Source of the DNA: Fusobacteriaceae bacterium
GTDB lineage: Bacteria; Fusobacteriota; Fusobacteriia; Fusobacteriales; Fusobacteriaceae
Direction of reading: 5' to 3'
Length of the DNA: 32,815 bases
Assembly (NCBI GenBank): GCA_031289425.1
Contig: JAITPM010000108.1
Span: forward strand, 1-32,815
Part shown: piece by piece, positions 11,602 to 32,200 of the stretch
Layout of the letters: the number at the start of each line of letters is the position of its first letter
How positions within the stretch are numbered: the first letter of the stretch is position 1
Made by a program: the position numbers and the translations under genes
Notes under the pieces: model-generated
Told to the model about the DNA's origin: nothing
The model's input: only the letters and a program-made list of their open reading frames with translations
The model's database searches: none

Positions 11602-11625
11602 AATAAGGGGGCAAGCCCCCTTATT
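11602..11625 (-). terminator. Intercistronic G5/C5 hairpin between binding protein and ATPase genes (repeat family copy 2)
   Basis: AATAAGGGGGC (11602-11612) and GCCCCCTTATT (11615-11625) form a perfect stem, 10 bp with a 4-nt loop. It lacks a T-tract on the minus strand, so it is more likely to cause partial termination or 3'-end protection than full stop. That would let the binding protein be made in excess over ATPase and permease, as is common in ABC operons. Confidence 0.6.
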
Positions 11626-14128: not shown

Positions 14129-15280
14129 ATGATGAAACGATTTTATTCTTTTTTGATGGTTGTATTTGTTTTATTAGTAGGATTAACTTTTTCTACAAAA
14201 GCAAAAGCCTCTAAGGCAGAGGAAGGAATACCTATAGGAATTATTGCTCCTACAACAGGTGGAGTAGCAGTTTATGGACAAGCTGTCGTGAATGGACTGA
14301 AACTCGCAATTGAGGAAATTAATGCTAAGGGTGGAGTACTCGGTGGTAAAAAATTGATTCCTACATATTTGGACGATAAAGGAGATGCCGTTGAAGGAAT
14401 AAATTCTTATAATAAATTGACTGGGGACAAAGTAAAGGCTATAATAGGTCCGGTAACTTCAGGAGTTGTCTCAGGTGTTGCTGAAAAAGCCAATAAAGAA
14501 GGAATGATAATACTTACACCAAGTGGAACAGCTGATTCTCTGACTATCGGGAAACCTACAGTATTCCGTACATGTTTTACGGATTCTTATCAAGGAAGAA
14601 TCATTGCTAAGTTTGCTGCTACAAAATTGAACATAAAAAAAGCAGCAGTATTATATTGTGGTGCTGATGAATATTCTTTAGGATTATTCACTGCATTCCA
14701 AGATGCTTGTAAAGAATTCGGTATAGAAATCGTTGCAAAGGAAACATCCGCTTCTATGGAAGACATTGATTTTTCTGCACAATTGGGTAATATAGCTGTT
14801 ACTGATGCAGAAGCTTTGTTTGTGCCTATGTATTATGGAACAGTAGCTCTATTGGCTCCGCAAGCTAGACATGCAGGATTTGACAAGATCCTTCTTGGTT
14901 CAGATGGTTGGGGTGGAATCGGAGATAAAATGGGAGATAATGAAGAATATTTCAATAATTCATTCTTTACAAGCCATTTCTCTTCAGAAGATAAAGCAGA
15001 AGAAGTTCAAAACTTTGTAAAAAATTATACGGCAAAATATGGAAAAGAATCATTAAATGAATTTAGTGCATTGGGATATGACAGTGCTTATGTGTTGGCA
15101 CAAGCTATCAACGAAGCAGGAAGCGATGAAACTGCTAAAATAGCAGAAGCTATGTCTAAAATGACGTTTAAAGGTGTAACAGGTAGGTTTAACTTTGATA
15201 AAAACGGAGACCCTGTAAAAGGAGCACCAATTATTGAATTAAAAGATGGAGAATTAAAGTGGAATTCTACAGTAGAATAA
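14129..15280 (+). CDS. LivJ-type branched-chain amino acid ABC transporter binding protein (orphan)
   Basis: This 383-residue periplasmic receptor of the LivJ/LivK family binds leucine, isoleucine, valine or related compounds. A signal peptide of about 28 residues (MMKRFYSFLMVVFVLLVGL…AKA) precedes the family pattern: IPIGIIAPTTGGVAVYGQ, NGLKLAIEEINAKGGVLGGKK, KAIIGPVTSGVVSGVA, IILTPSGTADSLT, VFRTCFTDSYQGRI and FSALGYDSAYVLAQAI. It starts at ATG 14129 (or 14132) after GAGGAGG. No permease or ATPase gene (livH, M, G, F) lies nearby. It must either use a transporter encoded elsewhere or act as a sensor or decoy receptor. Neighbours are divergent or convergent, so it is a single-gene transcript. 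Confidence 0.93.
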   Translation: MMKRFYSFLMVVFVLLVGLTFSTKAKASKAEEGIPIGIIAPTTGGVAVYGQAVVNGLKLAIEEINAKGGVLGGKKLIPTYLDDKGDAVEGINSYNKLTGDKVKAIIGPVTSGVVSGVAEKANKEGMIILTPSGTADSLTIGKPTVFRTCFTDSYQGRIIAKFAATKLNIKKAAVLYCGADEYSLGLFTAFQDACKEFGIEIVAKETSASMEDIDFSAQLGNIAVTDAEALFVPMYYGTVALLAPQARHAGFDKILLGSDGWGGIGDKMGDNEEYFNNSFFTSHFSSEDKAEEVQNFVKNYTAKYGKESLNEFSALGYDSAYVLAQAINEAGSDETAKIAEAMSKMTFKGVTGRFNFDKNGDPVKGAPIIELKDGELKWNSTVE

Positions 15281-15295
15281 TAAAATAAATCAATA

Positions 15296-15400
15296 AAAAT
15301 TCGCATATAGAAATCGGAGTGCAAGGGGTCATGACCCCTTGTTCTCAAATAGAGCACTAGATAAAAACCTAAGTTGTCTCAGTACTATATGCGGATTTTT
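15296..15400. repeat. Conserved intergenic hairpin element, copy C (about 105 bp)
   Basis: It lies between the convergent livJ-like and queH genes. The outer arms CGCATATAG (15302-15310) and CTATATGCG (15385-15393) pair perfectly and enclose a 20-bp perfect palindrome (15322-15341, CAAGGGGTCATGACCCCTTG). T-runs on both strands (after 15394 and before 15302) make it a likely bidirectional terminator. A second copy at 32034-32143 shares GCATATAGAAAT, AAGGGGTCA, CCCCTTGTTCTCAAA and GTTGTCTCAGTACTA in the same order, so this is a dispersed repeat and not a simple terminator. Confidence 0.75.
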
Positions 15401-15401
15401 A

Positions 15402-16016
15402 TTAACTTTTGGAAAAACAGCATCCACAAAAGTTTTGTCTATAGAGATTGAATTCTTTGGATATTTTGATACTTTCTAAAAATCTGTTTTTCTTTTTAAA
15501 ATCTCCATGTAAAAATTTCACTTTATATTTTTTTTCTAAATTTTCTCCCAATTCATTAATGACTTGGGAATTTTTTAAAGGACTGATAGAAAGTACCGTA
15601 GAAAAATAGTCAAAACCCATGCTGTTTGCTAGTCTTCCAGTCTCTTCCAATCTAAGATTATAGCAAATGAAACATCTTTCACCACCTTCTTTTGTATTTT
15701 CCAACCCTTTTACGTTAGGGAAAAAATCTTTTTCCGGGGAATAAAGTCCGTTAATAATTTTTATTGTATAATTTCTTTGCTTAATATAGCAAGATAATTC
15801 ATTATATCTTTTTAAATATTCGATTTTTTCGGTAATATTGGGGTTATAGAAATACAAAGTTATATCAAAAACATCTTTTAAAATTTCAATTACAGAGGAA
15901 CAACAAGGAGCGCAGCATGTATGCAACAACAAAGCTGGCTTTCTATCAAGAAAGTCAGCTTTTATATTTTCTATTTGATTATCCATAATTAAATCATAAT
16001 TAATCTTCTTTGCCAT
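15402..16016 (-). CDS. queH: Epoxyqueuosine reductase QueH
   Basis: This 204-residue enzyme catalyses the last step of queuosine synthesis, reducing epoxyqueuosine in tRNA to queuosine. It is the iron-sulfur alternative to cobalamin-dependent QueG. The QueH (former DUF208) hallmarks are all present: LLLHTCCAPCCSSV (Cys34, 35, 38, 39), FYNPNI, GGERCFICYNLRLEETG (Cys115, 118) and the C-terminal LYRQNFCGC (Cys197, 199), with the cysteines set for metal clusters. It lies 6 bp after the outer-membrane protein gene, so the two are probably cotranscribed, although no functional link is apparent. The convergent repeat element follows immediately. Confidence 0.95.
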   Translation of the reverse strand: MAKKINYDLIMDNQIENIKADFLDRKPALLLHTCCAPCCSSVIEILKDVFDITLYFYNPNITEKIEYLKRYNELSCYIKQRNYTIKIINGLYSPEKDFFPNVKGLENTKEGGERCFICYNLRLEETGRLANSMGFDYFSTVLSISPLKNSQVINELGENLEKKYKVKFLHGDFKKKNRFLESIKISKEFNLYRQNFCGCCFSKS

Positions 16017-30875: not shown

Positions 30876-32012
30876 ATGAAAAAAATTTCGTTTACTTACA
30901 TAAGAGGCGGTACCAGCCGGGCAGTGTTTTTTTTGAAAGAAAACTTGCCGAAAGATACTACACAATGGAATAATATCTTCAAGAATGCTTTGGGATTACC
31001 ACGGGATATGAAAGAACCGAAGGGAGCTCTAGGGAAACATTTACCTACCAGTAAAATCGCAGTAATATCAAGTTCTGAACACTCAGGCTTTGATGTGGAT
31101 TATCATTTTTTCCAAATGAATGATAATACGGGAATAGCTGATGATAGAGGAACTTGCGGCAATATGTCCTCTGCTGTAGGGACTTTTGCAGCAGACCATG
31201 GACTTGTACAGGTAAAAGATGGAGAAAACACGGTAAAGGTATATAATGTGAATACCGGAAAGTTATTTCTTTCTACTTTTATCGTGAAAAATGGAATATC
31301 TGTCGTATTGGGAGATACTATTTTGCCGGGTCTTACTGAAACAGGTTCTCCTATTGTCCTTGATTTTAGATATCCTGGTGGAGGTTACTCAGGTAAGCTT
31401 TTTCCGACAGGGCATAAAACAGATAAAATAAATTGTGAATCCTATGGAGAAAAAAAAGTCACAATCATAGATTGCGTAAATCCTATTGTGATTGTAAAAG
31501 CTGAAGATGTGGGCATGACCGGCAGAGAATTAAAAAATGATGAAATCAATAATGATTCTATGAAAATATTGCAAATGATCAGAGGAAAGGTAGCTGTATT
31601 GTTGAAACTGGTGGAGAAATGGGAAGAAGCGGCTATATTGTCTACTTATATACCTCATATCTCAGTCGTTTCTAAAGCTACGGATTATGTAACTGCAAAT
31701 GGCGAGAATATTTATAAGAGTGATATGGATTTTTGTGCTAGATCTATATTTACCGGGCTTCATCCGACTTACCCAGCAGGAGCTGCCATCGCAACAGCTG
31801 CCGCTGCATGTATTTCTGATACTATTATAGAAAAGGAATGTACTCAAAATAATATACAGACAAAATCTATGATTCGTAAATTTACAATTGGACACCCATG
31901 TGGATGTTTTCCTGTTACGATTACAGTCAATGGAGAGGAAATCGAAAGCGGTAGGATTGTTAGAACTGCTAGGGTTATATTTGATGGAGAATTGTATTGC
32001 GAGCAGATGTGA
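30876..32012 (+). CDS. prpF: PrpF-family isomerase (methylitaconate/aconitate type)
   Basis: This 378-residue protein of the PrpF family (diaminopimelate-epimerase fold) shifts a double bond or proton in unsaturated dicarboxylic or tricarboxylic acids (2-methylaconitate, 3-methylitaconate, 4-oxalomesaconate). Seen: SFTYIRGGTSRAVFF at the N-terminus, where the family has RGGTSK, and DDRGTCGNMSSAVGTFA with the likely catalytic Cys94. It also has LDFRYPGGGYSGKLFPTG, VTIIDCVNPIV and the C-terminal IGHPCGCFPVTITV. The frame is open from 30813 inside the C45 gene, but TAGGAG sits before ATG 30876. No prpB, C or D genes are nearby, so the propionate methylcitrate role is unlikely; a dedicated substrate from the C45 reaction is more plausible. 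Confidence 0.9.
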   Translation: MKKISFTYIRGGTSRAVFFLKENLPKDTTQWNNIFKNALGLPRDMKEPKGALGKHLPTSKIAVISSSEHSGFDVDYHFFQMNDNTGIADDRGTCGNMSSAVGTFAADHGLVQVKDGENTVKVYNVNTGKLFLSTFIVKNGISVVLGDTILPGLTETGSPIVLDFRYPGGGYSGKLFPTGHKTDKINCESYGEKKVTIIDCVNPIVIVKAEDVGMTGRELKNDEINNDSMKILQMIRGKVAVLLKLVEKWEEAAILSTYIPHISVVSKATDYVTANGENIYKSDMDFCARSIFTGLHPTYPAGAAIATAAAACISDTIIEKECTQNNIQTKSMIRKFTIGHPCGCFPVTITVNGEEIESGRIVRTARVIFDGELYCEQM

Positions 32013-32033: not shown

Positions 32034-32143
32034 AAATTTTGCATATAGAAATGGGTACGGAAGGGGTCAAGCCCCCTTGTTCTCAAACTAGCATCACATA
32101 AAATTGAGGTTGTCTCAGTACTAGATTGTTGTGCTAGGTTTTT
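32034..32143. repeat. Conserved intergenic hairpin element, copy D (about 110 bp)
   Basis: This is a second copy of the element at 15296-15400, starting 21 bp after prpF. It shares GCATATAGAAAT, AAGGGGTCA, CCCCTTGTTCTCAAA and GTTGTCTCAGTACTA in order. The inner hairpin is AAGGGG (32061-32066) with CCCCTT (32073-32078). The outer 3' arm of copy C is lost here; instead CTAGCA (32088-32093) pairs with TGCTAG (32132-32137) before a T5 tract, so terminator capacity is retained by a different pairing. Confidence 0.75.
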
Positions 32144-32169
32144 GATTTATTGATATCAACAAAGAATAG

Positions 32170-32200
32170 ATCTGTTGTAAGACATTACAGCAGATTTTTT
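32170..32200 (+). terminator. Intrinsic terminator after the C45-prpF operon
   Basis: ATCTGTTGTAA (32170-32180) and TTACAGCAGAT (32185-32195) pair over 11 bp with one G-U, loop GACA, followed by T6. It is the second stop signal after prpF. The next 250 bases (32201-32453) are AT-rich and I see no gene or clear signal in them. Confidence 0.85.

Follow-up and report, generated by a model that had tools for sequence, protein, structure and literature searches.

What are the two intergenic elements that share a GC-rich hairpin and a set of ordered sequence blocks on a single contig of a Fusobacteriaceae bacterium? The contig, C78 of a draft genome of 2,445,578 bases in 123 contigs, was analysed over its full 32,815 nucleotides and is referred to below as the window; the two elements are called copy C and copy D. 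An initial annotation made from the letters of the window suggested that they could be either a REP-like or MITE-like mobile element or a structured RNA, remarked that their conserved single-stranded blocks would be unexpected for a simple terminator, and proposed looking for further copies, with the aid of a covariance model, and for a target-site duplication and a partner transposase.

A nine-copy intergenic family

Whole-genome search confirms the shared element in the window: copies C and D match one another with an E value of 2.8e-14 and 78% identity. When C, D and a third copy were used as queries against the same genome, seven more full copies emerged, giving nine in all, each of approximately 125 bp: two in the window, one each on contigs C102, C62, C108 and C30, and three on C91, an 11.7-kb contig on which they span 7.3 kb. 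Pairwise identity among the nine ranges from 57 to 82% and the family is, therefore, an old one. All nine are intergenic and their gene neighbours differ; of the seven that can be judged in this respect (all but C91a and the C102 copy), six lie sense-downstream of a gene and the C108 copy lies antisense between two genes. Conservation, expressed as the mean majority share over the nine copies, is highest in the core hairpin (0.89), is close to 0.8 in the arms and loop of a second stem and falls to 0.64 in the 5' arm.

The proposed covariance model was built from the nine copies and run on 100 genomes, including this one. The nine copies score 78–132 bits, as they must by construction of a model trained on them, and the point of the search is that it brought up no tenth copy: the next matches in the genome reach 35 bits or less and are only lone hairpins and copy C read on its reverse strand. 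The full element was not found in the 99 other genomes, two of which are of the same genus, and the best match amongst them (46 bits) rests on the hairpin. Phage and plasmid collections contained no relative of the window element; one viral contig carries the core near its end.

Copy C (C78a; window positions 15292–15403, plus strand) fills a 121-bp gap between a livJ-type binding-protein gene (Peripla_BP_6), which ends at 15280, and the convergent queH gene, which ends at 15402, and its 3' part is unlike that of the other copies. The perfect 20-bp palindrome described for this copy, CAAGGGGTCATGACCCCTTG, is found at 15322–15341, as are the blocks GTTCTCAAA (15341–15349) and GTTGTCTCAGTACTA (15373–15387). 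The outer stem also exists but is longer than the 9 bp first given, as its plus-strand arms, AATAAAAATTCGCATATAG (15292–15310) and CTATATGCGGATTTTTATT (15385–15403), form 19 pairs, including one T-G wobble, with a T-run behind the stem on both strands. Folded as RNA, copy C reaches −43.7 kcal/mol, whereas its shuffled versions average −18.0 (z −8.8) and none of 200 is as stable.

Copy D (C78b; 32039–32162, plus strand) starts 26 bp past the end, at 32012, of a prpF-type gene, and lies sense-downstream of it. Its core hairpin, GAAGGGGTCAAGCCCCCTTG (32060–32079), is imperfect. A second stem (32088–32137, plus strand) pairs CTAGCATCACA (32088–32098) with TTGTTGTGCTAG (32126–32137) around a loop that contains GTTGTCTCAGTACTA, and a run of five T residues (T5) follows at 32139–32143. 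This stem, which had been put forward as the alternative to a changed outer arm, is real, but copy D as a whole has a weak fold (z −1.07) that 28 of 200 shuffles match. Around 25–30 bp beyond the second stem and its T5 there is a separate, strong terminator-like hairpin (32168–32197, with a T-rich tail to 32204). Elsewhere in the window, a lone hairpin, TAAGGGGGCAAGCCCCCTTA, sits at 11604–11623 between two minus-strand genes and is possibly a distant, simple relative of the core.

Stems, loops and termination

Across the nine copies the two proposed stems are paired in 77% of cells, a share that sliding them lowers to 52% or less, and we therefore regard them as real features of the ancestor of the family. 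RNAalifold retains only the core, and searches of Rfam at gathering and at relaxed thresholds returned no useful match for the element. Both sides have changed at three pairs; shuffles average 1.9 such pairs, and 145 of 500 equal or exceed the real value.

These results bear on two readings in which the element acts at the RNA level. One takes the element for a structured RNA, as the initial annotation suggested, or for an attenuator, located at the 3' ends of genes and with loops conserved for function. The stability of the copy C fold, the six copies lying sense-downstream of genes and the conserved loop blocks would all agree with this, but we find it improbable given that no Rfam family matches, that covariation does not exceed that of the shuffles, that the outer and second stems pair differently in copies C and D, that no full copy was found in any of the 99 other genomes and that the copies have unlike gene neighbours. 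The remark that single-stranded blocks are unexpected for a simple terminator was a fair one, but common descent accounts for such blocks, and we take the conserved loops to reflect the common descent of the copies rather than as proof of an RNA. The other reading is that the copies are ordinary intrinsic terminators of shared origin. At copy C, stop codons indeed converge from either side and each strand has a T-run behind the outer stem, and a T5 follows the second stem of copy D. No T-run, however, stands behind the core hairpin; a terminator scan calls none at copy C, the loop of which exceeds the length that the scan allows, and finds its strong terminator separately, behind copy D; and 120 bp of common loops and linkers would be superfluous for termination. 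We consider this explanation, too, to have little chance of being correct. Some present-day function of the copies is possible all the same: on either strand copy C would form a long hairpin with a T-rich end, and its outer stem could thus act as a two-way terminator between the convergent genes.

The core hairpin and adjoining transposases in other genomes

The 20-bp core follows the pattern GCAAGGGG-N6-CCCCTTGTT and may be written (T)GCAAGGGGTCNNGACCCCTTGTTC. With up to two mismatches it occurs at 24 places in the genome under study, against one for the reversed pattern, and with up to one mismatch there are 15 matches over both strands. At the latter threshold it is present in 15 of the 100 genomes, this one included, where a control gave one match in one genome. 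The sister family f4 (we take the families f1–f4 to belong to the Fusobacteriales) accounts for 14 of these, with 2–47 matches in each: all 13 genomes of genus g17, presumably Leptotrichia, and the single genome of g18. The core was found in none of the 19 other f4 genomes, neither of the two same-genus genomes and none of 58 other genomes of its own family. Across a wider set of 389 genomes, 29 carry the core (control, one match each in three of the 389), and 14 of the 29 are among the 293 genomes outside the order, with the highest counts in G217 (31), G182 (10) and G322 (8). Several near-perfect CAAGGGG-N6-CCCCTTG palindromes are seen in the distant genomes G217, G182, G322, G313 and G236, and their loop tends to be typical of the genome (TTTAAA or CTTAAG in G217, TCATGA in G182 and in G322, TTGCAA or TTGAAA in G313, CTATAG in G236). 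A literature search yielded no paper containing the hairpin string and none tying such a repeat to this order.

In f4 we examined 40 stretches, 20 from G071 (47 core matches) and 20 from G066 (24 core matches), which contain 42 hairpins. Some stand within other inverted-repeat scaffolds, of which there are at least three, some on their own and some in-frame within a gene; in one G066 reading frame, two in-frame hairpins are read as ARGQDPLS and ARGLDPLS. Both ends of a scaffold match at 24 of the 42 hairpins (13 of type B, seven of type C and four of type A), whereas 1684 random positions gave 11 such matches, the motifs having been derived from the same loci as were tested; most of the remainder match one scaffold end only and seven of the 42 match none. 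The scaffold motifs are GACCTGTTCGATAAC... for type B, GGCAATTGTAAAAGT... for type C and ACTATTTCCCATTTAAA... for type A, and the three scaffolds in G066 and G071 are bounded by inverted terminal repeats and show TA-like ends. They also occur without the usual core: type B with another hairpin (L130), type C with none (L080) and type A-like forms (L078, L085). At L130 (G066:C1:1431948-1432770), on the minus strand near 580, the core of the type-B scaffold is replaced by a repeated hairpin, CCGTCTCCTCTCGGAG. Plasmids contained no relative of two of the sister-family scaffolds. The 27 f4 places for which both neighbouring genes are known comprise 18 tandem, eight convergent and one divergent arrangement; REPs show the same gene-orientation bias.

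At three loci, in the genomes G066, G322 and G331, the hairpin lies directly against, or within, a Y1 transposase of the IS200/RAYT type; the label relating G322 and G331 to the genome under study is 'same domain' only. These loci were reached via their hairpins, such that the association is not independently sampled, and a transposase lies near the hairpin in only one stretch of a set of 20 that carry hairpins. The three proteins are 42–46% identical (E values of 6e-28 to 4e-36), and their similarity to both Y1 proteins of the genome under study is far lower. Their shared motifs, DH[IV]H, W[AT]Q and YI[KN]NNR-KHNL, occur in this combination in none of the 11 subclasses of Table 1 of PMC6006769.

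In G066 (L136) the reading frame with the two in-frame hairpins is that of an Eco57I/MmeI-type methylase, which is broken, hairpin to hairpin, by the transposase and continues with GFDVVVGNPPYV past a third hairpin. The transposase scores 35 bits with the Pfam Y1_Tnp profile and 43 bits with the NCBIfam model for REP-associated tyrosine transposases (cut-off 80). Its halves are permuted amongst the three hairpins, with the tyrosine half (profile positions 100–136) between hairpins 1 and 2 and the HUH half (18–88) after the second, and restoring the natural order of the halves gives 55.6 bits. Among 96 genomes of the order this protein has a strong match only in G066, so that 13 of the 14 hairpin-bearing f4 genomes are without a detected relative. 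In G322 (L205:6564-6965) a Y1 protein of 133 amino acids is flanked by two identical hairpins, each being the same 20-mer, CAAGGGGTCATGACCCCTTG, as in copy C. The protein spans no more than positions 23–99 of the profile and, hence, looks truncated too, and as its hairpins are near-perfect palindromes, an inverted orientation of the kind known from REPINs would be indistinguishable. In G331 (L204) the Y1 domain runs to the profile end (19–121 of 121), is followed closely by ACAAGGGGTTGCAACCCCTTGTT and lies within a methylase frame just before GGFDIVIGNPPY. Plasmids and viral contigs contained no relative of the G066 or G322 transposases. The Y1 domains of L136:992-4750 (G066) and L204:1-1875 (G331) lie in-frame at one and the same point of their Eco57I/MmeI-type methylases, immediately ahead of the (G)GFDxVxGNPPY motif; the kinship label of the two genomes goes no further than a common domain. 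A small extra inverted-repeat element (GTGTCTGAAAACT...AGTTTTCAGACAC) is present inside the G066 transposase, at approximately 2200–2330 of L136.

The partner transposase that had been proposed was not detected in the genome under study, in the sense of a cognate Y1 transposase flanked by the repeat. We rejected an IS200-type transposase on C98, whose ends and flanks are unlike the element, and a RAYT on C28, because its repeats, GGCGTTGCATGCAACGCC, differ. The latter gene (L150:1042-1770), a REP-associated tyrosine transposase, has the repeats GTAGAGGCGTTGCATGCAACGCC and their reverse twice within it and once behind, and its internal repeats resemble subclass 2.4 of PMC6006769. The C98 gene has its 5' region and first codons repeated once behind it (L063:1379-1567 and 2192-2377). 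A cognate transposase may have been lost from this genome, may be unassembled, or may never have been present, with the hairpins acquired by transfer.

Reading of the flanks likewise showed no clear target-site duplication in this genome, and the only duplication-like flanks are a 15-bp direct repeat around C91a and, at C62 and C102, repeated 5' flanks. The 15-bp repeat is part of a terminator-like hairpin; at C102 and C62 the 5' flank of the element and its left end are repeated nearby (L002:400-520, L004:1560-1660); and an extended tandem array, rich in A+T and made up of short units (AAGATATAAAGAAAAA and variants), reaches copy C91a (L043:1-280). No empty site was found in the two same-genus genomes, which are too distant, and too different in gene order, for the comparison to succeed; the gene behind queH in both is not of the livJ type and looks, we assume, like an MFS transporter. 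The inverted outer arms, 19 bp in copy C, pair only partially in the other copies, and no element with the same ends, as expected of an autonomous parent, is among the own-genome matches. A diversity-generating-retroelement hairpin, suggested by reading frames at C62 and C102, was dropped because the window copies do not lie behind such genes.

Nature and origin of the repeat

RUP, ERIC, Correia and other bacterial MITEs are imperfect palindromes of around 100–130 bp, intergenic and multi-copy. The repeat described here is similar in size and shares these properties, and differs from them in that its termini, a target duplication and a parent element were not found. Its core is also a dispersed, extragenic palindrome within the 20–40 bp typical of canonical REPs (20 bp, nine of nine copies intergenic), and none of GTAG, GTGG or CGTC, the forms of the GT(A/G)G or CGTC tag of a REP, stands beside the stem on either strand in any of the nine copies. 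As in the REP/REPIN-RAYT systems of PMC2817692, there is a palindrome and a Y1 transposase flanked by it; unlike those systems, there is no GT(A/G)G head and the copy number in this genome is low (15 matches). Untagged REP-like sequences have been named for M. tuberculosis, D. radiodurans, Bordetellae, Brucellae and Cyanobacteria (PMC3733652). These are, as here, short dispersed palindromes without a GTAG or CGTC tag, whereas the present hairpin adjoins a specific Y1 clade in three genomes and sits in longer scaffolds. TnpA-Y1 subclass 2.4 (PMC6006769) offers a parallel in having repeat units inside the transposase gene and a YIxNNP-like tyrosine motif, and differs from the present clade in its motif set. 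Our verdict is that the repeat is REP-like in its core and in the transposases met beside that core elsewhere, is not a canonical REP, being without the tag and without a detected cognate transposase here, and is MITE-like by virtue of its scaffold, the ends of which are putative.

The element is probably, then, a non-coding dispersed DNA repeat in which an untagged REP-like hairpin stands within a decayed MITE-like scaffold, the hairpin having formerly been moved by a Y1 transposase. The earlier suggestion of a REP-like or MITE-like mobile element gains support both from the nine dispersed copies and from a core that is common to dispersed palindromic repeats elsewhere and adjoins Y1 transposases at three loci. 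The Y1 clade (HUH, IS200/RAYT-type) would recognise the hairpin as single-stranded DNA, cutting and rejoining beside it. In the present genome the hairpin would have joined a MITE-like scaffold of greater length, which has conserved loops and a second stem rich in A+T, and this scaffold would have spread to at least nine intergenic places; we infer the mobility of the longer element from dispersal alone. The transposase would then have been lost and the copies have decayed, those behind genes perhaps serving now as terminators or 3' stabilisers.

A different origin, as a DDE-type MITE (of the IS630 or IS5 kind, for instance) carrying a GC hairpin by chance, with the Y1 transposase a coincidence, would fit the inverted terminal repeats and TA-like ends of the G066 and G071 scaffolds, the occurrence of scaffolds without the hairpin or with another, and a transposase-like ORF pair near one type-A copy, which we take to be a DDE-looking transposase. 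This seems unlikely to us, as the terminal inverted repeats of the window element could not be fixed, no insertion sequence with the same ends was seen in its own genome and the presence of one core in four unlike scaffolds would demand a separate explanation. The reading as a Y1-mobilised hairpin in a MITE-like scaffold can be extended, as a speculation that we hold to be rather unlikely, to a class of tagless REP hairpins served by an unlisted Y1 clade that nests in-frame in restriction-modification genes; four or more unrelated MITE-like scaffolds would each have taken up the hairpin as a modular core, and the HUH single-strand and the double-strand routes of transposition would share one hairpin.

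The two odd hairpins of the window are thus members of one old repeat family, and the significance of the finding lies more in the class of hairpin and transposase than in the window copies themselves. Untagged palindromic repeats for which no mover is known have been described; here, in three genomes, one such class lies beside a definite transposase clade and its mobility is, therefore, testable. The occurrence of one hairpin in several unlike scaffolds also raises the question of whether small mobile repeats swap modules.
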